DNA of 64,000 bases from Herbidospora yilanensis. Lineage in GTDB: Bacteria; Actinomycetota; Actinomycetes; Streptosporangiales; Streptosporangiaceae. The DNA is taken from the NCBI RefSeq assembly GCF_001570565.1, contig NZ_BBXE01000020.1, positions 124,001 through 188,000 of the forward strand. The letters run 5' to 3'. Positions 7,906 to 59,627 of the stretch are shown here, in pieces. How positions within the stretch are numbered: the first letter of the stretch is position 1; each line of letters opens with the position of its first letter. Both the position numbers and the translations under genes were made by a program. The notes under the pieces are model-generated. The model saw nothing but the letters and a program-made list of their open reading frames with translations. It was not told the origin of the DNA and did not search any database.

Positions 7906-7943
7906 GGAACGTCTCTTCCGACGACGGTTTGTCAATTTCCCTT

Positions 7944-7964
7944 ACTGTAAATAGTCTTTACAGT
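7944..7964. promoter_or_regulatory. 21-bp palindrome, probable operator of the NRPS-MFS gene
   Basis: A perfect inverted repeat, ACTGTAAA - 5 nt - TTTACAGT, lies 38 bp upstream of the GTG start of the minus-strand NRPS-MFS gene. The flank TTAAGCGGAGATCGCC is shared, in inverted orientation, with the second palindrome at 8071-8091. Its AT content stands out against the GC-rich surroundings. The bound regulator is unknown. Confidence 0.6.
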
Positions 7965-8070
7965 TAAGCGGAGATCGCCAGTCTCGCACGGCCGCCACGT
8001 GCACACAATGACCGGGAGGAGGGCTTGTCGGCCCCTCCGTCCGCATGGTTCACTGACGGCGATCTCGCTA

Positions 8071-37177: not shown

Positions 37178-37191
37178 TGGGAGCGCTCCCA
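37178..37191. promoter_or_regulatory. CebR box 1 upstream of cebE
   Basis: TGGGAGCGCTCCCA, the perfect 14-bp palindrome that CebR binds in Streptomyces. It lies 208 bp before cebE. Confidence 0.9.
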
Positions 37192-37307: not shown

Positions 37308-37321
37308 TGGGAGCGCTCCCA
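37308..37321. promoter_or_regulatory. CebR box 2 upstream of cebE
   Basis: A second perfect TGGGAGCGCTCCCA, 78 bp before cebE and 130 bp from box 1. Two such boxes could allow cooperative binding or looping. Confidence 0.92.
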
Positions 37322-43622: not shown

Positions 43623-43707
43623 GATTCCTCCTTGAGACGGTGTCTGCGGAGGAGTCTGCCGATCACGCCTTGGAGGCCGCTTGTGCTTCCTTCAAGCGGC
43701 GGGCCCA

Positions 43708-43755: not shown

Positions 43756-44658
43756 TCAGCTCATCGCGACCAGGACCCGGCGGGAGCCGGTGAAGGGCCG
43801 GCGGCCGTGGCCGACCAGGACGTTGTCGATCAGCAGCACGTCGCCCGTCCGCCAGTCCACGTCGACGGCGTGCTCCAGGCCCCGGTCGCGCACCTGGATC
43901 ACGTGGCCGGGCGGGATCGGCGTGCCGTCGGCGTACTGGACGGACTGCGGTAGGTCCTCCGGCGGCATGATCTCGGCGAGCATCATCGCGGTCTCGTCGC
44001 CCAGGGACGCCGGGTGCCACTGGTCGGACTGGTTGAACCAGACCTCCGCCCCCGTCACCGGGTGGCGGGTCGTCGCCGGGCGGACCTGGGTCACCCGCAG
44101 CCCGCCGTCGGACCGCCACGTCCACTCGGCGGCGGAGGCGTCGAGGAAGGCCTCGACCGCCTTCTTGTCCGAGGTCTCGAACGTCTCCTGCCAGCTCTTG
44201 CCGAGACCCATCCCCCCGTGCAGGTTCTGGGTGTAGCGCACGCCCTTGGCGAACGCCTCCCGGACCGGCGGATCGAGGGACTCCAGCCACGTCACGCCGT
44301 CGACGACCGGGGTCGCGCCGCCCGACTCGGCGGCCTTGGCGCAGAAGAACATCAGCCGCGACGGCCACGACGCGGCGTAGGACAACTCGTTGTGCATGGA
44401 GATCGTGTACTCGGCCGGGTACTCCGTCGAGGTGTACACGTTCTGGCCGACCTTGGTGCGCGGGGAGTTGCCGTGGACGTAGGCCAGCCGGTTCGGCAGC
44501 AGCAGGTCCATCGGCGCGTCCAGGGCGGCCTCGGTCACGCCGAAGCCGCGGAAGACCAGGGCCTTCTTCTCGACCAGCAGGTCGTCGACGGGGGTGTCGC
44601 GGAGGAACTCGGCCAGGGGCCGGCCGTCGCCGGGTAACTCATGGGGTTGCCAGCTCAT
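43756..44658 (-). CDS. SyrP/TauD-type Fe(II)/2-oxoglutarate oxygenase
   Basis: 300 residues. The iron-binding triad is seen as H89-x-E91 (SMHNELSY) and the distal H284 (DNVLVGHGRRPFTG), with the 2-oxoglutarate-binding Arg just after (GSRRVLVAM). H-x-E instead of H-x-D is typical of the clavaminate synthase-like branch, which includes SyrP and AsnO, hydroxylases of Asp or Asn used in peptide assembly. With the Asn/Asp-like code of the neighbouring NRPS, beta-hydroxylation of that residue is likely. The ATG overlaps the GT1 stop (ATGA), so the two form an operon divergent from the NRPS. Confidence 0.85.
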   Translation of the reverse strand: MSWQPHELPGDGRPLAEFLRDTPVDDLLVEKKALVFRGFGVTEAALDAPMDLLLPNRLAYVHGNSPRTKVGQNVYTSTEYPAEYTISMHNELSYAASWPSRLMFFCAKAAESGGATPVVDGVTWLESLDPPVREAFAKGVRYTQNLHGGMGLGKSWQETFETSDKKAVEAFLDASAAEWTWRSDGGLRVTQVRPATTRHPVTGAEVWFNQSDQWHPASLGDETAMMLAEIMPPEDLPQSVQYADGTPIPPGHVIQVRDRGLEHAVDVDWRTGDVLLIDNVLVGHGRRPFTGSRRVLVAMS

Positions 44659-45875
44659 CGGGATCCTTTTCGGAGGTGGCGTCGGAGCGCTTCGCGCTGG
44701 GATTCCGTGAGGACGGGACGAGCCGGGCGCGGCGGGCCGAGGAGCGAGGCGACGAGGGCCGCCGCTCTCGTGACGCCCGCCGACGGATCGAGGTCCTCGG
44801 GTGCTGCCGGCCGCTCCCCCGATGCGAGCAGATCGCGCAGCGTTTCCCCCGCCTCGGGCCATTTCCCGGGCGGAAGCCATCGTGCCAGCCCGAGTTTGGC
44901 GAGCCGGGCGGCGTTGTCGGGACGGTCGGCGCCGTCGGCGAGCACCAATTGCGGGGTGCCGGCCATCAGCGCGCGGGTGAGGGTGCCGATGCCGCCGTGG
45001 TGCACGACCGCCCTGACTTCCGGCACGACCTGGTCGAACGGCAACCGTCCGAACCAGCGCACCCCTTCGGGCAATGGCGTGGGCAACAATTCGGGATAGG
45101 GCGTGACGACCACGGCCGGAAATCCCTCGACCGCTTTCAGGGCGGAGGCGTAGAAGGCCTCGTTCAGCATGCGGCCGGTGCCGCCCGAGACGAGGACCGG
45201 TCGATCGGCGACGACGTCCGGAGAGAACGTTTCCCGGGAGGCGGCGTCGGGCACCGCGAAACCGGCGAGTTCGAATCGGGCCGGGGATTTCGTGCCCGCC
45301 TGGTCGAACCAGCGGGGCCACAATCCGATGTCCATGGTCGCGCCGGCGAACCAGCCGTGCCAATCGGTTATCGGCGGCAGGCCCAGGTCGTCCCGGACGG
45401 ACTGGAAGCCCCCGGCGAGTTCGGTCGCGTACATGTGGGCGGCCAGGCGCGCGCCCATGACCTGGATCGGGGAGACCGCGACCCAGGCGACGGGGCAGCC
45501 GAGCAGTTCGGCGGCGAACCGGACCGACAGGGCCGAGGTGTGCCGGCCGACCAGGACGGTCCGGCCCGGCTCGTGCCGTTCGGCGATGGCCTTGACCTCG
45601 AAGGCGAGCTGCTCGAACAGGCCGTTGCGCTCGTAGAAGGCGAGCCAGCCGAGGCCGCCGCGGGTGTCCATGAGCTGGGCGGTGTCGGCCTGGTGGCGGG
45701 CGAACTGCTCGGCGGTGTCGATCGCGGTGAAGTCGAGGCCGGCCGCCGCCGCGCGGTAGGGCGCGTGCGTGATCAGGGTCACCTCGTGACCCTGGCGGCG
45801 GAGCTCGGACCCGAGCCGGACGAAGGGCATCACGTCGCCGTCGGTGCCATGGGTGACGGCGATTATCCTCGGCAC
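44655..45875 (-). CDS. GT1 glycosyltransferase (macrolide/antibiotic glycosyltransferase-like)
   Basis: 406 residues from the GTG at 45875. The N-terminus RIIAVTHGTDGDVMPFVRLGSELRRQGHEVTLITH and the donor motif VHHGGIGTLTRALMAGTPQLVL are those of UDP-sugar-dependent natural-product glycosyltransferases. It could decorate the peptide product or mask its activity before export. An ATG 69 bp upstream (45944) is an alternative start. The upstream region is shared with the NRPS-MFS gene and holds CebR-like sites. Confidence 0.83.
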   Translation of the reverse strand: MPRIIAVTHGTDGDVMPFVRLGSELRRQGHEVTLITHAPYRAAAAGLDFTAIDTAEQFARHQADTAQLMDTRGGLGWLAFYERNGLFEQLAFEVKAIAERHEPGRTVLVGRHTSALSVRFAAELLGCPVAWVAVSPIQVMGARLAAHMYATELAGGFQSVRDDLGLPPITDWHGWFAGATMDIGLWPRWFDQAGTKSPARFELAGFAVPDAASRETFSPDVVADRPVLVSGGTGRMLNEAFYASALKAVEGFPAVVVTPYPELLPTPLPEGVRWFGRLPFDQVVPEVRAVVHHGGIGTLTRALMAGTPQLVLADGADRPDNAARLAKLGLARWLPPGKWPEAGETLRDLLASGERPAAPEDLDPSAGVTRAAALVASLLGPPRPARPVLTESQREALRRHLRKGSR

Positions 45876-45975: not shown

Positions 45976-45989
45976 AGAAAGCGCTCTCT
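45976..45989. promoter_or_regulatory. Degenerate CebR-like palindrome
   Basis: AGAAAGCGCTCTCT keeps the AGCGCT core and most of the dyad of the CebR box (9 of 14 positions), 101 bp before the GT1 start on its transcribed side. It could be a weak CebR site or belong to another LacI-family protein. Confidence 0.4.
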
Positions 45990-46297: not shown

Positions 46298-46311
46298 TGG
46301 GAGCGCTCCCA
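46298..46311. promoter_or_regulatory. Perfect CebR box upstream of the NRPS-MFS operon
   Basis: TGGGAGCGCTCCCA, identical to the two boxes before cebE, 112 bp before the GTG start of the NRPS-MFS gene. It is followed by TAACGGTTAA. Confidence 0.9.
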
Positions 46312-46423
46312 TAACGGTTAATTGGGTTCCGCAAGTTTCTGCAACTCAGCGCAACATTAGGATGGCGCTTATCGCGCCGGCCTTTTTCGGGTTGCCTTGG
46401 ACCGTTCAAAGAAAGGCCACTCC

Positions 46424-49400
46424 GTGGCAGTGACGTCCACATCCACACCCGAGTCCGTGCCCCGTGGCTCCCTCGGCGGGCTCTCCCCCGCGCGCCGGGC
46501 GGCACTCGCCCGCCTGCTCACCGCGCGCCCCAAATCCCCCATCCCCGTCGTGCCGCGCGACCAGGGCCCCCTCGCCTGCTCCTTCGAGCAGCGGCAGATG
46601 TGGCTCGGCGCGCAACTCGACGGCGCGGCCCCGGCGCCCAACGCCACCCTGGGGCTCCGGCTCGACGGCCCCCTCGACGTCCCGGCGCTGACCGCCGCCC
46701 TCGACGCCCTGATCGCCCGACACGAGAGCCTGCGTACCGTTTACGCGACTCCCGGCGACCAGGCCGCGAGCGACGGCGAACCGCTCCAGACGGTGCTCGA
46801 TCCGTTCCCCATGCCGCTGGAGTTCCACGGCGCCCCCGACCTCGCCGCGGAGATCACCGCCGAGGCGGTGACCAGGCGGTTCGACCTGCGGACCGGGCCG
46901 GTCGTGGCGGCGACGCTCATCCGGCTGGCCGAGCGGTCGCACGCCCTGCTGGTCGTGTGCCACCACATCGCCGCCGACGGCTGGTCGATGGGGATCCTGG
47001 CCGACGAACTGGCCACCCTCTACCGCGAGGCGGTGGACGGTGAACCGTCCCCGCTGCCGGCGTTGCCGGTCCAGTACGCCGACTACGCCGCCTGGTCCCG
47101 TGCCGAGCTGACCCCCGAGACGCTCGGCCGCCGCACCGCCTACTGGCGGGCCACGCTCGACGGCGCGCCCGCGGTCGACCTGCCGGTGCGGCGGGAGCGG
47201 CCGGTTCCCGGCGGGCGGCGTACCAGCACGAACTGGAGCCTGCTCGCCCCGGGCACCCTGGCCGCGCTGCAAGCGGCCGGAGGGCCGGGCACGACGCCGT
47301 TCACCGCCCTGCTGGCGGTGTTCTCGATGTTGCTGGCCCGCTACACCGGCGCCGAGGGGGTCACCCTGGCGACCACGAACGGCGGGCGCCGGCGGCGCGA
47401 GCTCGAAGGCGTCGTCGGCTGCTTCGTGAACGCGGTGCCGATCCACGGCGACCTGTCCGGCGATCCGTCCTTCCCCGAGGTCGCGGCCCGGATCAGGGCG
47501 GCCGTCGGCGGCGCGCTGAGCAACCCGCTGCCGCTGTCGGTGCTGGCCGACGCCGTCGACCTGAAGCTGCCGGTCAGCTTCTCGTTACGCGGCTTCCGCG
47601 ACCAGCGCGGCGACTGGCCCGGCCTGACCGCCTCGATCTGGGACCACGAGGTCGACCACCAGGGCTACGAGTTGTCGCTGCTCGTCCACCTCGACGGCGA
47701 CGTCACGGGGCTCGACTTCACCTACCGGCGCGACCTGCTCGACGACGACGTCGTCGACCGCATGGTGGGCCACTACCACCACCTCGCCGCCCAGATCGCG
47801 GCGAACCCGGCGGCCACGCTGGCCGAGCTCGACCTGGTGACCCCGGAGGAGCGGGAGACGATCTTCGGGACGTGGAACGACTCGGCGCGGCCGTACCCGG
47901 AGAGAGCGCTCCCTTTGTTGCTGGCCGAGCACCGGGACTCGACCGCGACGGCGGTCCGGTTCGGCGGCCGGGACACCTCCCACGCCGAGCTGCACGCCCG
48001 CGCCAACCAGATCGCCCGGCGGCTGCTCGCCGAGGGGGTCACGCCGGAGAGCACGGTCGGGGTGCTGCTCGACCGCTCCCCCGATCTGATCGCGTCGCTG
48101 CTGGGCGTGTGGCTGGCCGGGGCGGCGTACGTGCCGATGGACCCGGCGTTCCCGCCGCAGCGCATCGCCGACATGCTGGAGACGGCGGGCACGACGCTGG
48201 TGCTGACCGAGCGCGGGTACGTCTCCCGGTTCGACGGCCCCACGGTCGTCGAGGTCGCCTCGATCGACGGCGACACCACCCCCGTCGACGTCGAGCCCGA
48301 CCTCGACCGGCTGGCCTATCTCATCTTCACCTCGGGCTCGACCGGGAAGCCGAAGGGCGTCCAGGTCACCCACCGGGGGCTGGTCAACCACGTGTGGTGG
48401 GCCGTCGAGGAGCTCGCCTCCCGGGGCGAGGGCGGCGCGCCGCTGCTCGGGTCGGTCGCCTTCGACCTGGTCGTGCCCAACCTGTGGGCGCCGCTCGTGA
48501 CCGGCCAGGCCGTGACGGTCCTCGACCAGGACTTCGACATGGGCGAGCTCGGCGAGCTGCTCAGCGGCCGGGACTTCAGCTTCGTCAAGCTCACCCCCGG
48601 ACACCTGGAGGTGCTGGGCCATCAGCTCGACGACGCCCGCGCCGCCGCGCTGGCCGGGGTGATCGTCGTGGCCGGGGAGGCCCTCCCCGGTTCGCTCGCC
48701 GACCGCTGGCTCGAGATCCTCGGCCCCGGACGGCTGATCAACGAGTACGGCCCCACCGAGGCCACCGTCGGCACGTGCGTCTACCCGGTCACCCACCGGC
48801 AGCACCACGAGGTCGTCCCCATCGGGGCGCCACTGCCCAACATGCGCATGTTCGTTCTCGACCCGCACCGCCGCCTGCTTCCCGCCGGCGTCCCGGGCGA
48901 ACTGTACGTCGGTGGCGTCGGCGTCACCCGCGGCTACGTGAACCGACCGGACCTGACCGCCGAACGGTTCGTGGAGTTCGAGGGTGAACGCGTCTACCGG
49001 ACGGGCGACCGGGTCCTCTGGCTGCCCGACGGCAACGTGGCGTTCCTCGGCCGGTTCGACGACCAGGTGAAGATCCGCGGGTACCGCATCGAGCTGGACG
49101 AGGTCAGGGCCGCGCTCCTCGACCATCCGGGGGTGCGGGACGCGGTGGCGGCGGTGCACGAGGAACGGCTGGTGGCCTACTACGTGCCGGTCGCCGGTCC
49201 GGTGCGGGGCCTGGACGAGCACTGCGCGCTCCGGCTCCCGGAGTACATGGTCCCGGTGGTGTTCACCGAGCTCGACCGCATGCCGCTCAACGCGAACGGC
49301 AAGGTCGACCGCAGGGCGCTGCCCGCCCCCCAGGTCACCGCCTCCGCGGGGAGGGAGCCGGGCACCGAGACGGAACTCCTCATCGCGGGCGTCTGGAAAG

Positions 49401-51754
49401 AGGTCCTCAACGTCGAGACCATCGGCGTCGACGACGACTTCATGGCGCTGGGCGGCCACTCGCTGCTGCTCATCCGCATGATCGCCAAACTCCGCCAGAC
49501 GATGCCGGACAAGCCGGTCAGCGTGGTCGACGCCCTGGCCAACCGGACCGTAGCGGCCCTCGCCGCGCTGGTCGACGGGCCGGAAGAGGAGGAGAAGGGC
49601 CTGCTGGTCCGGCTCACCAAGCCGATCGCCGCCCCGGCCATGACCCTGGTCTGCGTGCCCTACGGCGGCGGCAGCGCGGTCGTCTACCAGGCGCTCGCCG
49701 ACGCGCTGCCGAAGGGCGTCGCGCTCCAGGCCGTCGCCCTCCCCGGGCACGAACTCGGCGTCGACGAGGAGATCCTGCCCTTCGACGAGGCCGCCGGGAG
49801 GATCTGCGCGGAGATCCTGGCCAAGGTCAAGGGCCCGCTGGTGCTGTACGGCCACTGCGTCGGCAGCGCCCTCACGACCGAGATCGCCCGCCGCGTCGAG
49901 GCGGCCGGCCGGGAGATCGACGCCGTCTACATCGCCGGCAGCTTCCCGTTCGCCGTCCCGACCAAGGGCCTGAGCGGCCTGCTGAACAAGCACTACTTCA
50001 ACAACCGCCGGCTGCGGAACAACAACTCCGAGGCCAACTGGCTGCGCGCCATCGGCGCCGACCTCGACGGCCTGGGCGCCGAGGAGGTCGAGCGCATCGT
50101 CACGACCATGCGCTCCGACGCCAAGGCGGGCGAGGCCTACTTCACCCGGCTGATCGACGAGGGCGCGACCCCGCTGACCGCCCCGGTCGTCTCGATCGTC
50201 GGCAGCCGCGACCCGATCACCGACTTCTACGAGGAGCGCTACCGCGACTGGCACGTCACCGCCAGGACGACGGCGCTCGTGGTGATCGACGAGGCCGGCC
50301 ACTACTTCCTCCGCTACCGGGCCGCGGAACTGGCGAGGATCATCACCGCCGTCCACACCGACCTCGACGGCCCCCACGCCGCCGAGACGTGGCGCAAGGA
50401 GGCGGTCTCCCGCGAGGCGCCGCCCGTCGAGGCCACGCTGGGCCGGTTCCTGCGGGTCGCCGCCGGCCAGACCGTGTCGATGGTCGGCACGGCCATGACC
50501 GAGTTCGCCGTCCCGATCTGGGCCTACCTGAAGACCGGCTCGCTGCTGCAGTTCAGCCTGTTCGCCATCATCGCGCTGGTGCCGGGCCTGGTGCTCTCGC
50601 CGCTCGTCGGCGCGCTGGTCGACCGGAGCGACCGGCGCAGGGCGATGCTCGTCGGCGACGGCGCCTGCCTCGGGCTGCAGGCGCTCATGCTGGGGCTGCT
50701 GCTCACCGACACCCTCCCGATGCCCGCGCTGTACGGAATCCTCGTCCTGCTCAGCGTGGCGCTCACGGTGCAACGCCTGGCCTGGGCGTCGGCCGTGCCG
50801 CAACTGGCTCCCAAGCACTATCTCGGCCACGCCGGCGGCGTGCTCCAGCTCGGCAACGCGATCGGCCGGCTGATGGTCCCGCTGTTCGCGGTCGGGGTGC
50901 TGGCCGCGATCGGCCTGAACGGGATCCTGATCGCCAACGTCGTCTGCTACCTGTTCGCCGTCGCCGTCACCCTGTTCACGCCGTTCCCCAGGGCCATGGC
51001 CTGGACCCGGCGGGAGACGGTCGGGGCGGAGATCCGCAACGGCTTCCGCTACCTGTGGCGGCGGCCGGGCCTGCGGGCGATGGCGATCACCATGTTCGTC
51101 GTCAACTTCTTCCTGTTCACCGCGTTCACGATGATCTCGCCGCTGGTGCTCTCGATGGGCGACCTGGGCGACACCGGGACCGTGGCCGTGGTCGCCGCCG
51201 CCGGGGCGGTGGCGGGCGGGTTCGTGATCTCGATCTGGGGCGGCCCGCGCCGCCGCCGGATGTTCGGCATGCTCTCGGCCGTGGCCGTCGTGGCGCTCTT
51301 CGCCTTCTCGATGGGCCTGCGGCCGTGGTTGCCGCTGGTCGCGCTGGGGGCGGCCGGGATGGCGCTGTTCATGACGATCAGCGACGGCATCTGGATCACG
51401 ATCATCCACTCGAAGGTGCCGCAGCGCTACCACGCCCGCGTGATCGCCATCAACCAGATGCTGGCCATGTCGACGCAGCCGATCGGCCTGGCCGTGCAGG
51501 CCTGGCTGGCCGGGCTGGTGTTCGTCCCGCTGCTGCGCGAGGACGGCGCGCTGGCCTCGACGGTCGGCGCCGTGATCGGCGTCGGCGAGGGGCGCGGCAT
51601 CGGCCTGCTCTACCTGATCTGCGGCCTCGCCATGGCCGTCACGATCGTGATCGCACTGAGGCACCGGGCGCTCCGGAACTTCGACCGGGACACCCCGGAC
51701 GCCGAACCCGACGATTTGGTCGGTCTCGCAGAACTGAAGGGAACCTCCGCATGA
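46424..51754 (+). CDS. CebR-box NRPS (C-A-T-TE) fused to an MFS exporter
   Basis: 1776 residues. Order: condensation domain (HHIAADGWS near 180), adenylation domain (FTSGSTGKPKG, YRTGDRVLW), carrier domain (FMALGGHSLL, Ser near 1012), RifR/GrsT-like thioesterase (VCVPYGGGSA; GHCVGS with Cys near 1145; late DEAGHYF) and an EntS-like 12-helix MFS domain (about 1343-1765). The hand-read pocket D-L-P-K-V-G-E-V-G-K is near the Asn code (DLTKLGEVGK). As a single module it would join an acyl or carrier-bound donor to one amino acid, and the fused domain could export the product. The GTG at 46424 has GAAAGG 8 nt upstream. It shares architecture with the gene at 2740-7905 but is clearly diverged from it. 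Confidence 0.93.
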   Translation: MAVTSTSTPESVPRGSLGGLSPARRAALARLLTARPKSPIPVVPRDQGPLACSFEQRQMWLGAQLDGAAPAPNATLGLRLDGPLDVPALTAALDALIARHESLRTVYATPGDQAASDGEPLQTVLDPFPMPLEFHGAPDLAAEITAEAVTRRFDLRTGPVVAATLIRLAERSHALLVVCHHIAADGWSMGILADELATLYREAVDGEPSPLPALPVQYADYAAWSRAELTPETLGRRTAYWRATLDGAPAVDLPVRRERPVPGGRRTSTNWSLLAPGTLAALQAAGGPGTTPFTALLAVFSMLLARYTGAEGVTLATTNGGRRRRELEGVVGCFVNAVPIHGDLSGDPSFPEVAARIRAAVGGALSNPLPLSVLADAVDLKLPVSFSLRGFRDQRGDWPGLTASIWDHEVDHQGYELSLLVHLDGDVTGLDFTYRRDLLDDDVVDRMVGHYHHLAAQIAANPAATLAELDLVTPEERETIFGTWNDSARPYPERALPLLLAEHRDSTATAVRFGGRDTSHAELHARANQIARRLLAEGVTPESTVGVLLDRSPDLIASLLGVWLAGAAYVPMDPAFPPQRIADMLETAGTTLVLTERGYVSRFDGPTVVEVASIDGDTTPVDVEPDLDRLAYLIFTSGSTGKPKGVQVTHRGLVNHVWWAVEELASRGEGGAPLLGSVAFDLVVPNLWAPLVTGQAVTVLDQDFDMGELGELLSGRDFSFVKLTPGHLEVLGHQLDDARAAALAGVIVVAGEALPGSLADRWLEILGPGRLINEYGPTEATVGTCVYPVTHRQHHEVVPIGAPLPNMRMFVLDPHRRLLPAGVPGELYVGGVGVTRGYVNRPDLTAERFVEFEGERVYRTGDRVLWLPDGNVAFLGRFDDQVKIRGYRIELDEVRAALLDHPGVRDAVAAVHEERLVAYYVPVAGPVRGLDEHCALRLPEYMVPVVFTELDRMPLNANGKVDRRALPAPQVTASAGREPGTETELLIAGVWKEVLNVETIGVDDDFMALGGHSLLLIRMIAKLRQTMPDKPVSVVDALANRTVAALAALVDGPEEEEKGLLVRLTKPIAAPAMTLVCVPYGGGSAVVYQALADALPKGVALQAVALPGHELGVDEEILPFDEAAGRICAEILAKVKGPLVLYGHCVGSALTTEIARRVEAAGREIDAVYIAGSFPFAVPTKGLSGLLNKHYFNNRRLRNNNSEANWLRAIGADLDGLGAEEVERIVTTMRSDAKAGEAYFTRLIDEGATPLTAPVVSIVGSRDPITDFYEERYRDWHVTARTTALVVIDEAGHYFLRYRAAELARIITAVHTDLDGPHAAETWRKEAVSREAPPVEATLGRFLRVAAGQTVSMVGTAMTEFAVPIWAYLKTGSLLQFSLFAIIALVPGLVLSPLVGALVDRSDRRRAMLVGDGACLGLQALMLGLLLTDTLPMPALYGILVLLSVALTVQRLAWASAVPQLAPKHYLGHAGGVLQLGNAIGRLMVPLFAVGVLAAIGLNGILIANVVCYLFAVAVTLFTPFPRAMAWTRRETVGAEIRNGFRYLWRRPGLRAMAITMFVVNFFLFTAFTMISPLVLSMGDLGDTGTVAVVAAAGAVAGGFVISIWGGPRRRRMFGMLSAVAVVALFAFSMGLRPWLPLVALGAAGMALFMTISDGIWITIIHSKVPQRYHARVIAINQMLAMSTQPIGLAVQAWLAGLVFVPLLREDGALASTVGAVIGVGEGRGIGLLYLICGLAMAVTIVIALRHRALRNFDRDTPDAEPDDLVGLAELKGTSA

Positions 51755-52074
51755 CCCCCACCGAATCCGCCGTCGCCGAGATCTGGACCGAGCTGCTCGG
51801 CCAGGCCCCGCCGTCGGTCGACGACGACTTCTTCGAACTCGGCGGCCAGTCGCTGACGATGGTCCAGTTCCTGGCCCGGGTGGAGGAGCAGTTCGGCGTC
51901 GAGTTACCCATCGACGTGTTGTTCTCGTCCGGGTTCACCGTCGCGGAGGCGTCCAAGGCGATCGACCAGGGCCGGATCGCGGCCGTGGACGACGACGAGC
52001 TGGCCGCCCTGCTGAAGCAGCTCGACGGCATGTCGGACGACGAGATCAACGAACTGCTCTCCGACAACGCATGA
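51751..52074 (+). CDS. Stand-alone acyl/peptidyl carrier protein
   Basis: 107 residues, overlapping the NRPS-MFS stop by 4 bp (ATGA). One carrier domain with the phosphopantetheine site FFELGGQSL (Ser near 34), then an acidic tail (DDDELAALLKQLDGMSDDEINELLSDNA). Free carrier proteins hold a building block made in trans. The E1/E2 genes three positions downstream are the obvious candidates for loading it. Confidence 0.9.
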   Translation: MTPTESAVAEIWTELLGQAPPSVDDDFFELGGQSLTMVQFLARVEEQFGVELPIDVLFSSGFTVAEASKAIDQGRIAAVDDDELAALLKQLDGMSDDEINELLSDNA

Positions 52075-53291
52075 GAGTCCTGCTCGCCCAGAACATGTTC
52101 CACCTCCCCAGCCACGGCGGGGCGAACAAGTCCAACCGGATCATGATGGAGCAGCTCGCGGCGCGCGGGCACGAGTGCCACGTCGTGGCGCCGATGAGCG
52201 GGGAGCTTCGTTCGACGTCCGCCGACGACCACGTGGCCTATCTCAGGGGTCTCGGCGCGGAGGTGACGTCGGCCGGTTCCGACGTGCTGGTCTACGACCA
52301 CAACGGGGTGCGGGCCCACGTGGCGACCCGCGCCTCCCTGCTCGCGAAGCTGATCGGCGAGGTGGCCGCCGAGGTCTCCCCCGACTGGACCCTGGTCCCG
52401 TCGGACGACCCCGGGCTGATCGTGCTCGGGGCCGCGCTGCGGGCGGCCCCGGAGCGGGTCGTCTACCTGGCGCACACGCTGCAGCAGTTGCCGTTCGGGC
52501 CCGGGGCGTTCTATCCGAGCGCGGCCGGGACCCGGATGGTGAAGCTGGCGGCGTCGGTCGTGGCGGTGAGCCAGGCGGCGGAGACGTACCTCCAGAAGTG
52601 GGGCGACATCTCGTCCACACTGATTTATCCGCATATTTACGGAGATCCGGCAGAACTGGCCGGCGGAGACCTGATCACGATGATCAACCCGTGCGGCTAC
52701 AAGGGCCTGAGCGTGCTCCTCGGCCTCGCCGACGCGCGGCCCCGCCTGCGGTTCCTGGCCGTGCCGACCTGGGGCACCACCGCCGACGACCTCGACGAGC
52801 TGAAGCGCCGGCCCAACATCGAGATCGGCCAGCCCTCCGACGACATCGACGACATCCTGTCGCGGGCGAAGGTCCTGCTCATGCCCTCGCTCTGGGACGA
52901 GACCTTCGGGTACGCCTGTGTCGAGGCCATGGCCCGGGGCGTCCCGGTGATCGCCAGCGCCGTCGGCGGCCTGTCGGAGGCCAAGCTCGGCGTGCCCTAC
53001 TCGGTCCCGGTGCGCGGCATCGAACGTTACGAGTCGGTCGGCCGGGCCCGGCCCGTCCCGGTCGTCCCGGAGCAGGACCTCGGCCCCTGGCTGAACGCCC
53101 TCGACCCCGTGACGGGCGACGAGGCGCTGCATCGCCACCTGGCCCGCCGGTCGAGGAAGGCCGCGCTCGACTTCATCGGGTCGCTCGACGCCGGCGCCCT
53201 GGAAGCCCACCTGACCACCCTGCGGCCCAACCGCCGCCTCGCCGCGCTGGCCGCGCTCGCGGCGGCCCGTGCCAAGGAGTCCCAGTCATGA
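52071..53291 (+). CDS. Family 4 glycosyltransferase in the NRPS operon
   Basis: 406 residues, ATGA overlap with the carrier-protein gene. A GT-B fold with MRVLLAQNMFHLPSHGGANKSNRIM at the start and the donor motif MPSLWDETFGYACVEAMARGVPVIAS. Being inside the chain of coupled genes it should act on the product or on a precursor, for example adding a sugar that makes the product resemble a glycolipid or glycopeptide. Donor unknown. Confidence 0.87.
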   Translation: MRVLLAQNMFHLPSHGGANKSNRIMMEQLAARGHECHVVAPMSGELRSTSADDHVAYLRGLGAEVTSAGSDVLVYDHNGVRAHVATRASLLAKLIGEVAAEVSPDWTLVPSDDPGLIVLGAALRAAPERVVYLAHTLQQLPFGPGAFYPSAAGTRMVKLAASVVAVSQAAETYLQKWGDISSTLIYPHIYGDPAELAGGDLITMINPCGYKGLSVLLGLADARPRLRFLAVPTWGTTADDLDELKRRPNIEIGQPSDDIDDILSRAKVLLMPSLWDETFGYACVEAMARGVPVIASAVGGLSEAKLGVPYSVPVRGIERYESVGRARPVPVVPEQDLGPWLNALDPVTGDEALHRHLARRSRKAALDFIGSLDAGALEAHLTTLRPNRRLAALAALAAARAKESQS

Positions 53292-54199
53292 TCGGAGCGG
53301 TGCGGGAACGCACCCTGACGCCCGTCTCGGAAGCCGACCTGTCGCGGATGTTGCGGATCCGGCACTTCGAGAAGGCCCTGCTGCGCCTGTTCGAGCAGGG
53401 CCGCCTCAACGGCACCACGCACACCTGCCTCGGCCAGGAGCACGTGCCCGTCGCGGTCAGCGCCCTGCTGCGGCCCGAGGACCACGTGTTCAGCAACCAC
53501 CGGGGGCACGGCCACTTCCTGGCCCGCTACGACGAGCCGCACGCCCTGCTCGCCGAGATCACCGGCCGCGAGGGCGCGCTCTGCAACGGAGTGGGCGGCA
53601 GCCAGCACATCTACCACGAGCGGTTCCTGTCGACCGGCGTCCAGGGCGAGTCGCTCCCGGTCGCGGTCGGGGTCGCGCTGAGGCACCGGCGGACCGGCGA
53701 CGGGATCGTGTGCGCGTACATCGGCGACGGCACCTGGGGCGAGGGGTCGGTGTACGAGGCCCTGAACATGGCCCAGCTCTGGGGCGCCCCGCTGCTGGTC
53801 GTCGTCGAGCACAACCGGATCGCCCAGTCGACGCCGACGGCCCGCCAGATGGCCGGGTCGATCGCGGGCCGCTGCGCCGGGTTCGGCGTCCGGCACGAAC
53901 GGGTCGAGTCGGTCGACGTCAACGTGGTGCGCGGCGCGCTGGCGCCGCTGGTCGACCACGTGCGGCGGGAGAAGCGCCCGGCCGTGTTCGAGGTGTCGGT
54001 GCACCGGGCCGGGCCGCACAGCAAGGGCGACGACACCCGCACCGCCGCCGAACTGGCCGAGGCCGCCGCCGGCGACTGGTACCCGCACTACACCCGCGAC
54101 TTCCCCGCGCAGGTCGCGGCGCTGGAGGAGATCGAGCGCGCGTTCATCGACGCCGCGGTGGAGAACGTGCTGGCCCGGCCCCTGTCGGAGTGGTCATGA
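53288..54199 (+). CDS. 2-oxo acid dehydrogenase E1 alpha subunit
   Basis: 303 residues. The thiamine diphosphate motif runs from GDGTWGEGSVYEALNMA to VVEHNRIAQS, and the N-terminal RMLRIRHFEKALLRLFEQG is typical of PDH/AcoA-type alpha chains. With the next gene it would decarboxylate a 2-oxo acid, or cleave a ketose phosphate, on TPP and pass the two-carbon or acyl unit to the lipoyl arm of E2. No dihydrolipoamide dehydrogenase (E3) gene is present, so the set may not serve NADH production. ATGA overlap with the GT4 gene. Confidence 0.9.
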   Translation: MIGAVRERTLTPVSEADLSRMLRIRHFEKALLRLFEQGRLNGTTHTCLGQEHVPVAVSALLRPEDHVFSNHRGHGHFLARYDEPHALLAEITGREGALCNGVGGSQHIYHERFLSTGVQGESLPVAVGVALRHRRTGDGIVCAYIGDGTWGEGSVYEALNMAQLWGAPLLVVVEHNRIAQSTPTARQMAGSIAGRCAGFGVRHERVESVDVNVVRGALAPLVDHVRREKRPAVFEVSVHRAGPHSKGDDTRTAAELAEAAAGDWYPHYTRDFPAQVAALEEIERAFIDAAVENVLARPLSEWS

Positions 54200-55167
54200 G
54201 AGTCGCCGAACACCTGAACCGGTCGCTGCACTCGCTGATGGAGAACGATCCGTCGGTCCACCTGCTGGGCGAGGACGTCTCGGACCCGTACGGCGGCGCG
54301 TTCAAGATCACCAAGGGCCTGTCGGACCGCTTCGGCCCGCGCGTGATGTCCACTCCCCTGTCCGAGGGGGGCATCGTCGGCGTCGGCGCCGGGCTGGCCC
54401 TGGCCGGCGACCGGGCCATCGTGGAGATCATGTTCGGCGACTTCGCCACGCTGGCCTTCGACCAGCTCGTGAACTTCGCGGCCAAGTCGACGACCATGTA
54501 CGGCCGTCCGGTGGACGTGCCGCTGATCGTGCGCCTCCCCACCGGCGGCCGGCGGGGCTACGGGCCGACGCACAGCCAGAGCCTGCAGAAGCACTTCATC
54601 GGCGTGCCGGGCCTGTCGGTGTACGAGATGAGCCCCTTCCACGACGCCGGGCGGCTGTTCGCCGAGATCTTCGCGGGTGGTAGGCCGGCCGTGTTCTTCG
54701 AGGACAAGGTCCTCTACACCAAGCCGATGCTGAGCGACGGCGACGGCCTGCACACCTTCGAGGTGCGCGACGGCTGGGCGGTGATCCGGGCGGAGCGGGA
54801 CACCGAGGACGTGCTGCTGGCCCCGGGCGGCCTCACCGACCGCGCCCTGACGGCCCTGCGCGACCTGCTGCTGGAGGACGAGATCGCCTGCACGCTGCTG
54901 GTCCCCGCCCGCCTCCACCCGCTCGACGTGACCCCGGTCGCCGACGTGCTCGCGGCGGCCAAACGGGTGCACGTCGCGGAGGACGGCACCGCCGGGGGGA
55001 CCTGGGGCGCCGAGGTGGCCCGGCTGCTGCACGAACGGCTGTGGGGCCGGCTGACCGCGCCGATCACGCACATCTCGGCGCCCGACTCGATCATCCCGAC
55101 GGCCGCGCACCTTGAGGCCCGGTGCACCGTTCAGCCCGCCGACATCCGAAGAGCCATAAACAAATGA
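54196..55167 (+). CDS. 2-oxo acid dehydrogenase E1 beta subunit
   Basis: 323 residues, ATGA overlap with the alpha gene. Typical beta-chain sequence: LLGEDVSDPYGGAFKITKGL, RVMSTPLSEGGIVGVGAGLALAG, MFGDFATLAFDQLVNFAAK and RLPTGGRRGYGPTHSQSL. It completes the alpha2-beta2 E1 that binds thiamine diphosphate at the subunit interface. Regulated as part of the NRPS operon. Confidence 0.9.
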   Translation: MRVAEHLNRSLHSLMENDPSVHLLGEDVSDPYGGAFKITKGLSDRFGPRVMSTPLSEGGIVGVGAGLALAGDRAIVEIMFGDFATLAFDQLVNFAAKSTTMYGRPVDVPLIVRLPTGGRRGYGPTHSQSLQKHFIGVPGLSVYEMSPFHDAGRLFAEIFAGGRPAVFFEDKVLYTKPMLSDGDGLHTFEVRDGWAVIRAERDTEDVLLAPGGLTDRALTALRDLLLEDEIACTLLVPARLHPLDVTPVADVLAAAKRVHVAEDGTAGGTWGAEVARLLHERLWGRLTAPITHISAPDSIIPTAAHLEARCTVQPADIRRAINK

Positions 55168-56249
55168 CCGAATTCCGCATTCCGAAGCTGAACAACAACG
55201 ACGACAGCTACATCCTCGTGGAATGGCTCGCGGCCGACGGCCAGGAGGTGAAACAGGGCGACCCGCTCGTGGTCATCGAAACGTCGAAGACGGCGGAGGA
55301 ACTGGAAAGTCCGGCCGACGGGACATTGGCCATCCGGGTCCATTCCGGCGACTGCGCCCCGGGCGAATTGATCGCCGCCATCGGGGCGGCGGTCGAGGTC
55401 GCGGAACCGGTCGTCCCCGAGGTGCCGCCGCTGGAGTCCGGGGAGATCGACATCGTGATCACCCGCCCGGCGCAGGTGCTGATCGAGCGCCACGGCGTCT
55501 CGCTCGACCGGGTGCGGGCGCTCGGCAAGAAGGTGATCAGGGCCGAGGACGTGGAGTCGCTGGCCGACCCGCGCGAGGTCGTCGTGCTGCCGAAGGCGCA
55601 GCGTCAGGCCGCCGACGTGGTGGTGCTGTCGCACCAGACCATCCCGGCGGCGTTCACGGTGGTCAAGGCCGACGTGACCGACACCGCCAAGCTGACCCGG
55701 GACCTGTCCAAGCACGCCCGGACCCTGATCGGGCTGTCGGAACTGCTGGTCAAGGCGGTGGCCGACCAGCGGGCGGAGTTCCCGCACCTGTTCTCCACCT
55801 GGCTCGGCGACGGCCGGATCCGGCTCGCGGAGGGGTCGCACGTCGGCGTCACCATCGACGTCGGCAAGGGCCTGTTCGTGCCGGTCGTCCGCGACGCGGA
55901 CGTGCGTCCGCTCGACGCGGTGGCCCGGGAGCTCATGGACTACCGGATGACCGCGCTGCGCGGCAGCTTCCGGGAACGCGATCTGGAGGGGGCCAACATC
56001 GTGGTCACCCTGCACGGCGAGGCGGGCGTGGAGTCCGCGATCCCCATCGTCCATCCCGGCCACGTGGCGGCGCTGTCGCTCGCCTCGACGCAGCAGGAGG
56101 TCCAGCAGGGCGATGAAGGTTTCATGGTCCGCCAGACCGTGCGGATCGGGCTGGCCTTCGACCACCGCGTCGTGAACGGCCGGGACGCCGCGCTCTTCCT
56201 CGGAGCGGTCAAGCGGTTGCTGGAGGAACCGCGCAGATGGTTGGAATAA
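55164..56249 (+). CDS. 2-oxo acid dehydrogenase E2 (lipoyl acyltransferase)
   Basis: 361 residues, ATGA overlap with E1 beta. N-terminal lipoyl domain with lipoyl-Lys at 42 (ETSKTAEELES), a peripheral-subunit-binding region (TRPAQVLIERHGVSLDRVRALGKKVIRAEDV) and a CoA-acyltransferase domain ending in FDHRVVNGRDA (His near 334; the usual Asp of HxxxDG is Asn, as in some AcoC-like proteins). It is short for E2. It could hand its acyl group to the free carrier protein rather than to CoA, as in the NapB/NapD and QncN/QncL systems. Confidence 0.88.
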   Translation: MTEFRIPKLNNNDDSYILVEWLAADGQEVKQGDPLVVIETSKTAEELESPADGTLAIRVHSGDCAPGELIAAIGAAVEVAEPVVPEVPPLESGEIDIVITRPAQVLIERHGVSLDRVRALGKKVIRAEDVESLADPREVVVLPKAQRQAADVVVLSHQTIPAAFTVVKADVTDTAKLTRDLSKHARTLIGLSELLVKAVADQRAEFPHLFSTWLGDGRIRLAEGSHVGVTIDVGKGLFVPVVRDADVRPLDAVARELMDYRMTALRGSFRERDLEGANIVVTLHGEAGVESAIPIVHPGHVAALSLASTQQEVQQGDEGFMVRQTVRIGLAFDHRVVNGRDAALFLGAVKRLLEEPRRWLE

Positions 56250-56323
56250 CGCGTCGTGGTGTATTTGTGCTGATGTCACTCAGCGCCGCCGGCGCCTGCG
56301 CCGCAGACCGACCGAGGAGAACC

Positions 56324-57622
56324 ATGACGCCCGTACGCTTCCCCCGTGACTTCGTCTGGGGGGCGGCCACCTCCGCCTTCCAGGTGGAGGGTGCCACCAA
56401 GGAGGACGGCCGGGGGGTGTCGGTCTGGGACACCTTCGCCGCCACCCCGGGAAACGTGCGGGACGGCGACACCGGCGACCCGGGCGCCGACCAGTACCAC
56501 CGCGTCGAGCAGGACATCGCGCTGATGCGCGAGCTGGGCCTGGAGAGCTACCGCTTCTCGATCGCCTGGCCGCGTGTCCAGCCGACGGGCACCGGCCGCC
56601 CCAACCTCAAGGGCCTGGACTACTACAAGCGCCTGGTCGACGGCCTGGTCGGCGCCGGCATCCGCCCGATGGTCACGCTGTTCCACTGGGACCTCCCCCA
56701 GGCCCTCCAGGACGAGGGCGGCTGGGAGAACCGCGACACGGCCCACCGCTTCGCCGAATACGCCGAGATCATGTACGACGCCCTGCACGTCCGCGACTGG
56801 CTCACGATCAACGAGCCGAAGACCGTCGTCGACTGCGGCTACCGCACCGGCATCCACGCCCCGGGCGTGCGCGACGACGACCGCGCCCTGGTCGCCTGCC
56901 ACCACCTGCTGCTGGCCCACGGCCTGGCCAGCCGCCTCCTGCACGACCGCCACCCGGGCCGCCGGATCGGCCCCGCGCTGAACCTCCACCCGACCTACCC
57001 GGCCGACGACTCGCCCGAGGCGAAGGAGGCCGCGCGCCGCCAGGACGCCCGCGAGAACCGTCTCTACCTGGAGCCCGTCTTCAACGGGACCTACCCGGAG
57101 GAGGCCATGACCCGGCATGACATGATCATGGACGGGGACATGGAGATCATCAGCGAGAAGGTGGACGTGCTCGGCGTGCAGTACTACACGCCGCTCTTCA
57201 TCGACGCCGAACAGCGGCGCGTCGTCCGCCATCCGGTCAGGGTGGCCGGCTGGCTGGAGGACTACCCCGACGGCCTGCACGACGTCCTGCTGCGCGTCAC
57301 CCGCGACCACCCCGGCGTGCCGATCGTCATCACCGAGAACGGCCTGGCGACCGACGACGCGGTCGCCGCCGACGGCGGCGTGCACGACGACGACCGGATC
57401 GCCTATCTGCGCGGCCACATCGGCGCGATGCACCGCGCGATGGAGGCCGGCGCGAAGGTCGAGGGATATCACGTGTGGTCGCTGCTCGACAATTTCGAAT
57501 GGGCCGAGGGATACAGCCAGCGATTCGGCATCGTGCACGTCGACTACGCGACGCAGAAGCGAATTCCGAAAGACAGCGCCCTTTGGTACCGGGACCTTGT
57601 CGAGACCGGCGAACTGCGGTGA
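56324..57622 (+). CDS. Second GH1 beta-glucosidase, possibly secreted
   Basis: 432 residues from the ATG at 56324, which has a strong GAGGAGA site. A family 1 glycosidase: VRFPRDFVWGAATSAFQVEGA, acid/base Glu in TINEPKTV, nucleophile Glu in VITENGLATDD, DNFEWAEGYSQRFG. The frame stays open to an ATG at 56237, itself preceded by GGAGGA, and the extra 29 residues (RRGVFVLMSLSAAGACA) look like a twin-Arg signal peptide. If used, the enzyme is exported and could unmask a glucosylated product outside the cell. It lies 74 bp after the E2 gene (or overlaps it by 13 bp from the upstream ATG). Confidence 0.88.
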   Translation: MTPVRFPRDFVWGAATSAFQVEGATKEDGRGVSVWDTFAATPGNVRDGDTGDPGADQYHRVEQDIALMRELGLESYRFSIAWPRVQPTGTGRPNLKGLDYYKRLVDGLVGAGIRPMVTLFHWDLPQALQDEGGWENRDTAHRFAEYAEIMYDALHVRDWLTINEPKTVVDCGYRTGIHAPGVRDDDRALVACHHLLLAHGLASRLLHDRHPGRRIGPALNLHPTYPADDSPEAKEAARRQDARENRLYLEPVFNGTYPEEAMTRHDMIMDGDMEIISEKVDVLGVQYYTPLFIDAEQRRVVRHPVRVAGWLEDYPDGLHDVLLRVTRDHPGVPIVITENGLATDDAVAADGGVHDDDRIAYLRGHIGAMHRAMEAGAKVEGYHVWSLLDNFEWAEGYSQRFGIVHVDYATQKRIPKDSALWYRDLVETGELR

Positions 57623-57668: not shown

Positions 57669-57682
57669 TGGGAGCGCTCCCA
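57669..57682. promoter_or_regulatory. Perfect CebR box upstream of the aldose epimerase gene
   Basis: TGGGAGCGCTCCCA, 84 bp before the GTG at 57767; the fourth identical copy in the window. Confidence 0.9.
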
Positions 57683-57766: not shown

Positions 57767-58645
57767 GTGCCCCAGTACACCCTCCTCGGCGGCGGCTACC
57801 GCGCGGAGCTGACCGAACTCGGCGGCGCCGTCTCAGCCCTCACGCACGGAGGACGTGACCTGATCCCGAGCCGACCCGTCGACGGGCCGATCGAGTTCTA
57901 CAACGGCACCCTGCTCGCGCCGTGGCCCAACCGGGTCGTCGGCGCCCGCTACGTGTTCGCCGACGAGTGCTTCGAGCTCCCCGTGAACGAGCCCGACCGG
58001 GGCCACGCCCTGCACGGCTTCGTCTCCGACGCCCACTGGTCGTGCGTGGAGTTCACCGCGATCGAAGACCACCGCTCCTCGGCGGTCATGACCTACACGC
58101 TGGAACCCCACCAGGGCTACCCCTACCGGCTCGCCCTCACCACGACGTACGTCCTCGACGAGACGGGCCTGACGACCACCCTGAAGGCCGAGAACATCGG
58201 CGAGACCGCCGCCCCCTACGGCTGCGGCCCCCACCCGTGGTTGCTGGCCGGCCCCGACGTGACCGAATACACGCTGTCCCTGCCCGCGGGGAAGGTGTTC
58301 CTGACCGACGAGCTGCTCGCCCCCACGGAGCTGGTCGCGGTCGACGGCACCGACTACGACTTCCGCGAGCCCCACCCGCTGGGCCGGGTCGCCATCGACC
58401 ACGCCTACACCGCCCTGAGCGAGGGCCGCGTCGTGGTGAGCGGCCCCGGCGGCGGCGTGGCCGTCACGTGGGACCACGAGTCCCTGCCGTGGGTCCAGGT
58501 CTGCAACGGCGTGGGCCTGGGCTACAAGGGCGTCGCGGTCGAGCCGATGACCTGCCCGCCCGACGCCTACAACAGCGGCACCGACCTGATCGTCCTCAAG
58601 CCCGGCGACACGCACGAGGCGAGCTGGACGATCTCGGCGGCCTGA
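57767..58645 (+). CDS. Aldose 1-epimerase family protein
   Basis: 292 residues from a GTG with GGAGAAAGG upstream. A mutarotase-like beta-sandwich: NGTLLAPWPNRV, the first active His in GHALHGFV, the second in CGPHPWLL, and the catalytic Glu in VAVEPMTCPPDAYN. It interconverts alpha and beta anomers of hexoses, which would help channel glucose set free from beta-linked cellobiose. The CebR box just upstream supports a place in the cellobiose regulon. Confidence 0.87.
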   Translation: MPQYTLLGGGYRAELTELGGAVSALTHGGRDLIPSRPVDGPIEFYNGTLLAPWPNRVVGARYVFADECFELPVNEPDRGHALHGFVSDAHWSCVEFTAIEDHRSSAVMTYTLEPHQGYPYRLALTTTYVLDETGLTTTLKAENIGETAAPYGCGPHPWLLAGPDVTEYTLSLPAGKVFLTDELLAPTELVAVDGTDYDFREPHPLGRVAIDHAYTALSEGRVVVSGPGGGVAVTWDHESLPWVQVCNGVGLGYKGVAVEPMTCPPDAYNSGTDLIVLKPGDTHEASWTISAA

Positions 58646-58646
58646 C

Positions 58647-59627
58647 ATGGACAGCAAAACGAAGCGGTCGCTGACGACCGCCGAACTCGACGCGCTCGTC
58701 ATCGGCGCCGTGGGAGCGGGCGTCGTGACGGCCGAGGAACTGCCCGACGGCTTCGCCAACGCCGTCTGGCGCCTCGGCCTCGACGACGAGTCGCAGGTCG
58801 TCCTGAAGGTCGGCCCGCCCCCCGACCTGCCGCTGCTGACCTACGAACGCGACCTGCTGCGCACCGAGGCCATGGTCTACCACCTGGCCCAGGGCACCGG
58901 CCTGCCCATGGCCACGCTGCTCCACGCGGGCTTCGACGACCCCGGGATCGGTGGCGACTGGCTGATCCTGTCGGCGCTCACGGGCACACCGTGGAACCGG
59001 GCGGCACCCGACCCCGCGCGGGACGGCGCGCTGAGGCGCGAGATGGGCGCCCACCTGGCCACCCTCCACCGCATCCCCGGTTCGGGCACGTTCGGCTACC
59101 CCTACGCCGGCCTGACCGGGGCGACGTGGCGCGAGGCGTTCCTGAAGATGGTCGGCGCTATCCTCGACGACGCGGTGAAATGGGAGACCCGCCTCCCGGC
59201 CACCATCCTCGACCTGGTCGGCGCCTTCCACCGCAACGCGGCGGCCCTCGACGACGTGCAGACCCCCGCGCTGGTCCACTTCGACGTCTGGCCGGGCAAC
59301 GTGTTCCTCAACCCCGACGGCACGATCGAGGCGCTGATCGACCACGAACGCGCCTTCTGGGGCGACCCCCTGGCCGACTTCGTGACCCCGACCATCTTCT
59401 CCGACCTGACCGGAGACGACCCGATGCTGGCGGGCTACCAGGAGGGCGGCGGGCGGGCCGGCTTCACCCCGACGTCCCGGGTCAGGTTCGCGATGTACCA
59501 GGCGTACCTGTACCTGATCCTGCTGGTCGAGGACGGTCCCCGGCAGTATCCGGAGGCCGACTACGCCCGGCTGCGGAACGGCGCGACCGAGGGCCTGGTG
59601 CGGGCGCTGGGCATCCTGACGCGCTGA
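58647..59627 (+). CDS. Phosphotransferase of the aminoglycoside phosphotransferase/kinase fold
   Basis: 326 residues, 1 bp after the epimerase gene. It has the catalytic loop LVHFDVWPGNVFL (H-x-D-x4-N) and the metal-binding ALIDHERAFWGDPLADF, the marks of APH-type small-molecule kinases (fructosamine, homoserine, choline or antibiotic kinases). Co-transcription with the CebR-box epimerase makes a sugar or sugar amine a likely substrate; self-resistance is another possibility. Confidence 0.82.
   Translation: MDSKTKRSLTTAELDALVIGAVGAGVVTAEELPDGFANAVWRLGLDDESQVVLKVGPPPDLPLLTYERDLLRTEAMVYHLAQGTGLPMATLLHAGFDDPGIGGDWLILSALTGTPWNRAAPDPARDGALRREMGAHLATLHRIPGSGTFGYPYAGLTGATWREAFLKMVGAILDDAVKWETRLPATILDLVGAFHRNAAALDDVQTPALVHFDVWPGNVFLNPDGTIEALIDHERAFWGDPLADFVTPTIFSDLTGDDPMLAGYQEGGGRAGFTPTSRVRFAMYQAYLYLILLVEDGPRQYPEADYARLRNGATEGLVRALGILTR

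Follow-up and report, generated by a model that had tools for sequence, protein, structure and literature searches.

A perfect CebR-type operator upstream of a nonribosomal peptide synthetase operon in Herbidospora yilanensis and its recurrence in related gene clusters

Can a repressor of cellulose utilization also hold a biosynthetic gene cluster in check? This question is raised by a locus of Herbidospora yilanensis (Streptosporangiaceae), where the operator palindrome of the LacI-family regulator CebR precedes an operon headed by a nonribosomal peptide synthetase (NRPS) gene, close to the ceb genes for sugar import. We analysed a stretch of 64,000 nucleotides around this locus (assembly GCF_001570565.1, contig NZ_BBXE01000020.1, positions 124,001 to 188,000; hereafter the window, with positions counted from its first letter). 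A sequence-only reading had proposed that cellulose breakdown products switch on a peptide product here, with the regulator encoded beside its target. Our analysis supports this proposal and widens it from one locus to a family of clusters. We consider it likely that the operon at 46424-57622 constitutes a biosynthetic cluster belonging to the CebR (CelR) regulon, and that CebR represses clusters of this kind until cello-oligosaccharides release it.

The operator, its regulator and the genomic regulon

The 14-bp palindrome TGGGAGCGCTCCCA was present at the NRPS promoter, as expected for a member of the CebR/CelR regulon. The copy at 46298 is indeed identical to both boxes of the cebE promoter (37178 and 37308), ends at 46311, 112 bp before the GTG start codon at 46424, and lies 3.1 kb from cebR, all as first proposed; a fourth perfect copy in the window, at 57669, had been overlooked. 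The GTG is preceded by AAGAAAGG, a plausible ribosome-binding site, and the six genes starting with the NRPS gene are joined by the predicted 4-bp overlaps (ATGA at 51751, 52071, 53288, 54196 and 55164). The candidate regulator is an ortholog of CebR/CelR encoded within the ceb operon, the order of which is cebE, cebF (named by place only), a gene in the place of cebG, bglC and cebR. CebR matched Protein Data Bank entry 5ysz, which we take to be Thermobifida fusca CelR with cellobiose, over its full length and with an identical recognition segment, GVGRGTVSRVINGS. Among the 23 LacI genes caught by a regular expression for the helix-turn-helix (HTH) motif (of 38 matches), this segment occurred only in CebR. 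T. fusca CelR is reported to bind the same palindrome (PMC4697097).

A scan of the whole genome (67 contigs; 7,854,788 bases) returned 16 perfect boxes versus none for a reversed control pattern, and 18 versus 3 when one mismatch was allowed. In the window alone, sites with up to three mismatches were not in excess over chance (9 observed, 7.6 expected): the signal resides in the perfect sites. The proposal would have been undermined by many copies at unrelated genes, but over half of the 16 lie at cellulase, CBM2, ceb or epimerase genes. Specifically, six belong to GH9/GH48/GH6/CBM2 genes (by nearest gene, GH9 and GH48 on contig C14, GH9 and GH6 on C23, and CBM2 proteins on C26 and C61), two to cebE, one to the aldose epimerase gene and two to NRPS operons. 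Two more lie at LacI genes, one of them shared with a solute-binding protein gene, and three at other genes: mscL, a malate/lactate dehydrogenase-like gene that starts ∼320 bp downstream of its box near a contig end, and a gene for a secreted-looking protein without a Pfam match. The box set of this genome corresponds to the cellulose regulon reported for CebR and CelR (PMC5332605, PMC3377646). At C14:281700-294700 (L017) a GH9 gene (CBM3, CBM2) adjoins a GH48 gene (CBM2), each with its own perfect box.

The second boxed NRPS operon lies behind the box at C33:101716. Its first gene encodes another synthetase with condensation, adenylation, thiolation, thioesterase (TE) and major facilitator superfamily (MFS) domains (C-A-T-TE-MFS), 41% identical to the first over nearly the full length, and is followed by genes for a carrier-protein homolog, a GT1 homolog (50%), a C-A-T NRPS and a GH3 protein, the latter named by eye from its sequence. 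By domain order this cluster is nrps-5 of Komaki et al., while the synthetase in the window is their nrps-7. Five NRPSs of the genome matched across the TE and over at least most of the MFS part, and a sixth match covered the MFS part only. Boxes with at most one mismatch were absent from the remaining three, nrps-3, nrps-4 and nrps-6 (named by domain order and place), which serve as a within-genome control. The unboxed nrps-4 lies in the window itself, at about 2700-8000 on the minus strand (TE-MFS match C20:126764-128872), ∼37 kb from cebR.

Distribution of the operator among TE-MFS genes

We sampled 61 genomes from 60 genera, 18 of which held 46 TE-MFS genes at E ≤1e-180, and searched each gene from -7000 to +400 of its open frame for boxes with at most one mismatch. 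The upstream stretch was shorter than 7000 bp in four cases (L134, 661 bp; L056, 1675 bp; L139, 6212 bp; L127, 6955 bp), the last two of which were counted as unboxed. Twenty of the 46 genes, in 13 of the 18 genomes, carried a box (16 perfect), while five control palindromes gave one hit in total over the same 46 stretches. Together with the genome-wide counts, these controls rule out chance occurrence of the box. When the box was mapped onto the tree of these genes as a label, its distribution took 6 changes versus 15.3 in shuffled data, and none of 500 shuffles was as low.

The box might also be a functionless leftover of chance or inheritance, a view with a simple basis: members of a genus resemble one another in sequence through common descent. 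Between genera, however, this did not hold for the surroundings of the box. Over 20 nrps-7 loci (7 Herbidospora, 4 Acrocarpospora and 9 Microbispora) all 14 box bases were identical, whereas the ungapped 60-bp flanks had fallen to 49/23%, 25/20% and 19/28% identity (upstream/downstream) between genera. Moreover, distinct NRPS lineages carry the box, and a functionless remnant is hardly credible. The downstream box was kept as well: at 10/10 Herbidospora/Acrocarpospora type-A loci, the start of the NRPS frame was followed by a perfect copy at a distance of 11.3-11.5 kb. Paired operators, 125-229 bp apart, were found at 12 of the 20 boxed genes (L116, L121, L123, L124, L126, L130, L135 and L148-L152), and ten of the pairs include TGGGAGCGTTCCCA. 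This suggests looping or two-site repression.

When named genomes were searched with the TE-MFS parts of the two boxed paralogs, 38 loci were recovered from Herbidospora, Acrocarpospora, Microbispora, Nonomuraea, Planotetraspora, Sphaerisporangium, Thermocatellispora and Nakamurella. Of these, 33 were boxed at ≤1 mismatch (31 perfect), a count that we do not use as a rate because the search patterns came from two boxed paralogs and thus bias the scan. The exceptions were L095, with two mismatches, and L079, L081, L085 and L089 without a box, with L079 and L081 at contig ends.

Box and regulator also went together. All 13 genomes with boxed TE-MFS genes encode a CebR ortholog of 80-100% identity, while in the five genomes with unboxed TE-MFS genes only the best matches were 91, 80, 76 and 56%, and none in the fifth. 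TE-MFS genes within 20 kb of cebR were boxed in 7/7 cases versus 13/39 for the others (Fisher P 0.0014), so that the proximity of regulator and target noted for the window recurs in other genera. The seven linked loci (in genomes G000, G029, G027, G045, G059, G033 and G055) represent two NRPS lineages, as the synthetases of G027, G045, G059, G033 and G055 are on a different tree branch from nrps-7. In G059 and G045 the divergent partner of the NRPS nevertheless reads E1-alpha, E1-beta, E2 and GH1, then a box, epimerase and APH. This layout, shared with the window across NRPS branches, indicates that the neighbourhood was kept while the NRPS differs.

Several observations weigh against control of the cluster by CebR. 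The 26 TE-MFS genes without a box, which include three of the five in the genome under study, mean that enzymes of this family can do without CebR control. The clustering and cebR-linkage tests do not remove shared ancestry, and a search around the box at 46298 revealed no sigma-70-like promoter. The TE-MFS genes of G003 and G019 were unboxed even though these genomes encode CebR proteins with 80% and 91% identity. Finally, two other LacI genes of the same genome have a perfect box upstream, which bears on the identity of the regulator: the palindrome at 46298 might be read by another LacI protein, most likely the paralog at C13:270450-271451 (46% identical to CebR), alone or together with CebR, and the signal need then not be cellobiose nor act through CebR.

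Of nine genomes searched, the present one included, six had an ortholog of this C13 paralog, and each of the six (81-100% identity in G000, G045, G059, G033 and G027; 71% in G003) carried a perfect box 22-38 bp upstream of where the match begins, a position that self-regulation would predict. The three genomes that lack the paralog, G019, G022 and G056, had no boxed TE-MFS gene and few perfect boxes overall (4, 3 and 1, respectively), even with a 91% CebR in G019. The third LacI gene, at C16:23286, has a perfect box upstream too. The HTH segment of the C13 paralog, GVSPATASRVLTGS, however, differs from that of CebR and 5ysz, and the paralog could simply be a CebR target that was lost along with the rest of the regulon. 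Furthermore, NRPS clusters lie beside cebR in seven genomes, and G003 has the paralog and 14 boxes, none of them at its TE-MFS gene. We regard a reader other than CebR as unlikely, while giving it appreciable weight. At the paralog locus itself (L016 4999-6055; C13:270398-271454) a serine/threonine kinase-like gene, recognized by eye, follows the LacI gene.

From the arrangement of sites and genes we infer CebR binding, repression and induction. In the model that we favour, CebR, encoded 3 kb away, would sit on the palindrome at 46298 and block transcription until cello-oligosaccharides, brought in through the Ceb importer, displace it, and the cluster would then be switched on together with the cellulases and the importer. 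This wiring would belong to the NRPS-TE-MFS family of Streptosporangiaceae, in which it may have been kept or gained several times.

Gene content and putative product of the cluster

The features of the locus are listed in Table 1. The genes for the GT1 glycosyltransferase, whose Protein Data Bank matches were among antibiotic and sterol glycosyltransferases, and the TauD-family dioxygenase overlap by 4 bp and are divergent from the NRPS operon, with cebR beyond. The TauD gene is not a constant companion: it was absent from the locus in L063 and L065, and none was found at the nrps-5 locus. A small open stretch resembling a secreted protein lies between cebR and the TauD gene (about 43190-43630, minus strand).

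Table 1. Features of the ceb locus and the adjacent NRPS cluster, in window positions. ACP/PCP, acyl or peptidyl carrier protein; TPP, thiamine pyrophosphate.
Feature	Position	Strand	Evidence
CebR/CelR box 1, cebE promoter	37178..37191	.	perfect match
CebR/CelR box 2, cebE promoter	37308..37321	.	perfect match
cebE, sugar-binding protein of ABC importer	37399..38739	+	PDB 5ixp E 4.7e-78; 8bfy (named cellobiose-binding) E 1.3e-66
bglC-like GH1 beta-glucosidase	40677..42134	+	PF00232 E 5.6e-159
cebR, LacI-family repressor, candidate box regulator	42162..43181	+	PF00356, Peripla_BP_3; best PDB 5ysz E 1.1e-124
TauD-family Fe(II)/2-oxoglutarate dioxygenase, candidate beta-hydroxylase	43759..44658	-	PF02668 E 2.4e-33; HxE at residue 89, late His 284
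GT1 glycosyltransferase	44655..45875 (GTG 45875 inferred; longest frame from 46022)	-	PF06722, PF03033
Second, different LacI-type palindrome AGAAAGCGCTCTCT, GT1 promoter	45976..45989	.	
CebR/CelR box, NRPS operon	46298..46311	.	perfect; invariant across 20 nrps-7 loci
NRPS, 1776 aa, C-A-T-TE-MFS (nrps-7 of Komaki 2015 by size and domain order)	46424..51754	+	Pfam; PMC4599437 Table 2
TE domain with Cys-Asp-His triad, ObiF1-like	49589..50389	+	
Stand-alone carrier protein (ACP/PCP)	51751..52074	+	PF00550 E 2.6e-15
GT4-type glycosyltransferase	52071..53291	+	PF00534, PF13439
E1-alpha, TPP-dependent dehydrogenase component	53288..54199	+	PF00676 E 3.1e-43
E1-beta (transketolase-like)	54196..55167	+	PF02779, PF02780
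E2, lipoyl domain and acyltransferase	55164..56249	+	PF00364, PF00198
GH1 beta-glucosidase, probably intracellular, 45% identical to bglC	56324..57622 (longer frame from 56237)	+	PF00232
Perfect box preceding epimerase gene	57669..57682	.	pattern match
Aldose 1-epimerase	57767..58645	+	PF01263 E 9.1e-42
APH / fructosamine-kinase-like protein	58647..59627	+	PF01636, PF03881

The second palindrome in the GT1 promoter raises the prospect of a further input. AGAGAGCGCTCTCT was found within one mismatch in the GT1 promoter of 11/11 Herbidospora/Acrocarpospora loci tested, the window included, and AGARAGCGCTYTCT occurred three times in the genome versus zero for the control. The AGAGAGCGCTCTCT palindrome is reported before a Thermobispora transporter operon (Anderson et al., PMC3377646). 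Two sugar regulators may thus act on the cluster.

The earlier description of a peptide product is probably too simple, given a single NRPS module, an acyl-ACP cassette and two glycosyltransferases. The gene set points to a small glycosylated acyl-amino acid. The A-domain code, DLPKVAEVGK, read by eye against the GrsA positions and known codes, presumably comes nearest to the code for Asn. Independent support is provided by Komaki et al., who also called Asn for this A domain (PMC4599437).

The ACP, E1-alpha, E1-beta and lipoyl E2 genes next to the NRPS gene form a cassette like those described for quinocarcin (QncLMN) and scleric acid (SclQ1-4), in which the same set stands beside a small NRPS; this comparison was made by description. 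The Scl proteins are given as 76, 305, 338 and 386 aa (PMC6335953) versus 107, 303, 323 and 361 aa in the window, and, unlike the Qnc/Scl cassettes, the operon in the window adds glycosyltransferases and a beta-glucosidase. The cassette thus resembles one for glycolyl-ACP. The TE domain has a Cys nucleophile, an Asp in a RifR-like position and a His, the features described for ObiF and SulM (PMC6668435, PMC11298585). Consistent with this, ObiF1 and SulM were the nearest solved structures in the five best Foldseek and three best VIA matches of its AlphaFold model, which is of middling confidence (pLDDT 76.9; below 50 at 134-142); identity to ObiF1 is ∼31%. ObiF is described with an MbtH domain, whereas Pfam revealed none in the NRPS of the window, where an MFS domain follows the TE.

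On this basis, the ACP, E1 and E2 proteins would load a short acyl unit, with glycolyl as our best guess, and the single NRPS module would join it to an Asn-like residue; GT1 and GT4 would then glycosylate the product, and the fused MFS domain would export it. A far more detailed scenario, which strikes us as doubtful, is that cello-oligosaccharides switch on a family of small glycosylated alpha-amino-beta-lactones in Streptosporangiaceae. Here, glycolyl-ACP from E1/E2 would acylate beta-hydroxyasparagine (made by TauD) held on the single NRPS module, the Cys-TE would close the beta-lactone on release, GT1/GT4 would sugar the glycolyl hydroxyl and the MFS domain would export the product. Clusters of this type would have landed at the ceb locus repeatedly, which would couple chemical defence to growth on cellulose.

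The downstream genes also allow a purely catabolic interpretation, in which the box serves an operon for cello-oligosaccharide use (E1/E2, GH1, epimerase and kinase) and the NRPS is a passenger, with no product under cellobiose control. GH1, epimerase and APH genes do follow the cassette, the epimerase gene has its own box, and the GH1 enzyme is probably intracellular. In addition, one genome (G024; L159, G024:C51:86000-105900) has GT1, a perfect box and ACP-GT4-E1-alpha beside cebR, with NRPS and TauD absent. The acyl-ACP set of G024 may serve an NRPS elsewhere. In the nrps-5 cluster, however, the box precedes the NRPS operon and no E1/E2 genes were found in the 20 kb examined. Moreover, E1-beta co-occurs with TE-MFS NRPSs in 15/17 genomes (Fisher P 1.4e-9), and 16 of 24 E1-beta genes lie within 20 kb of a TE-MFS NRPS gene, 9 boxed and 7 unboxed, which argues that E1-beta follows the NRPS and not the box. 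We therefore consider a catabolic operon with a passenger NRPS quite improbable.

Another role for the GH1 enzyme was set aside. Oleandomycin offers a precedent for a secreted glucosidase that reactivates an exported glycoside, and the longer GH1 frame from 56237 has a signal-like N-terminus. This N-terminal extension was kept in the Herbidospora loci but not in Acrocarpospora, and it contains a stop in L066. Inspection by eye of the GH3 protein from the nrps-5 cluster likewise revealed no signal, which weakens the idea further.

Relation to known systems

The cluster itself has been described before. Komaki et al. reported nrps-7 of H. yilanensis NBRC 106371 as C/Aasn/T-TE with 1776 aa, conserved in all five Herbidospora type strains and with its product not predicted; their table lists no MFS domain, which the gene in the window has (PMC4599437). 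The terms cellobiose, CebR, promoter, regulat- and glycosyl- are all absent from the main text of that paper.

On the regulatory side, the CelR regulon of T. fusca and its relatives has the same palindrome and comprises cellulase and importer targets (PMC4697097, PMC3377646). The main text of Anderson et al. (PMC3377646) uses neither "nonribosomal" nor "non-ribosomal", and the "pyruvate dehydrogenase" targets of CelR in Streptosporangium (S. roseum) may be the cassette found here.

The closest parallel is the thaxtomin (txt) cluster of Streptomyces scabiei, an NRPS cluster that is linked to CebR boxes and induced by cello-oligosaccharides (PMC5332605, PMC8914351). Its boxes are described as imperfect (cGGGAGCGCTCCCA, gGGGAGCGCTCCCA), located 786-899 bp upstream or inside txtB and acting through the activator TxtR (PMC5332605, PMC8914351). 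In the window, by contrast, the box is perfect, the core NRPS operon starts 112 bp after it and cebR is beside the cluster; the genes scanned in this region showed no activator gene. That the gene set is unlike the thaxtomin cluster had been anticipated, and Pfam indeed revealed no txt genes or AraC-type TxtR among eleven genes at 43.7-59.6 kb. According to the S. scabiei transcriptome study, no responsive cluster except that for thaxtomins seems to be under direct CebR control, and two others rose in a cebR mutant without a predicted site (PMC8914351); rotihibin is reported to be cebR-independent (PMC8552735). In the open-licence PubMed Central (PMC) literature we found direct CebR control of clusters for thaxtomin only, and among the matches listed no CebR/CelR control of Streptosporangiaceae NRPS clusters.

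Our findings suggest that these soil bacteria make small molecules while feeding on plant cellulose. If true, this would extend the tie between growth on cellulose and small-molecule production beyond plant disease, and a silent cluster family could be woken by adding cellobiose or deleting cebR. A CebR-controlled cluster as such is of a known kind. New to our open-licence PMC searches are the cluster type, the perfect operator placed directly before core NRPS operons, the spread of this arrangement through the NRPS family in many genera of soil actinomycetes and its frequent location beside cebR.

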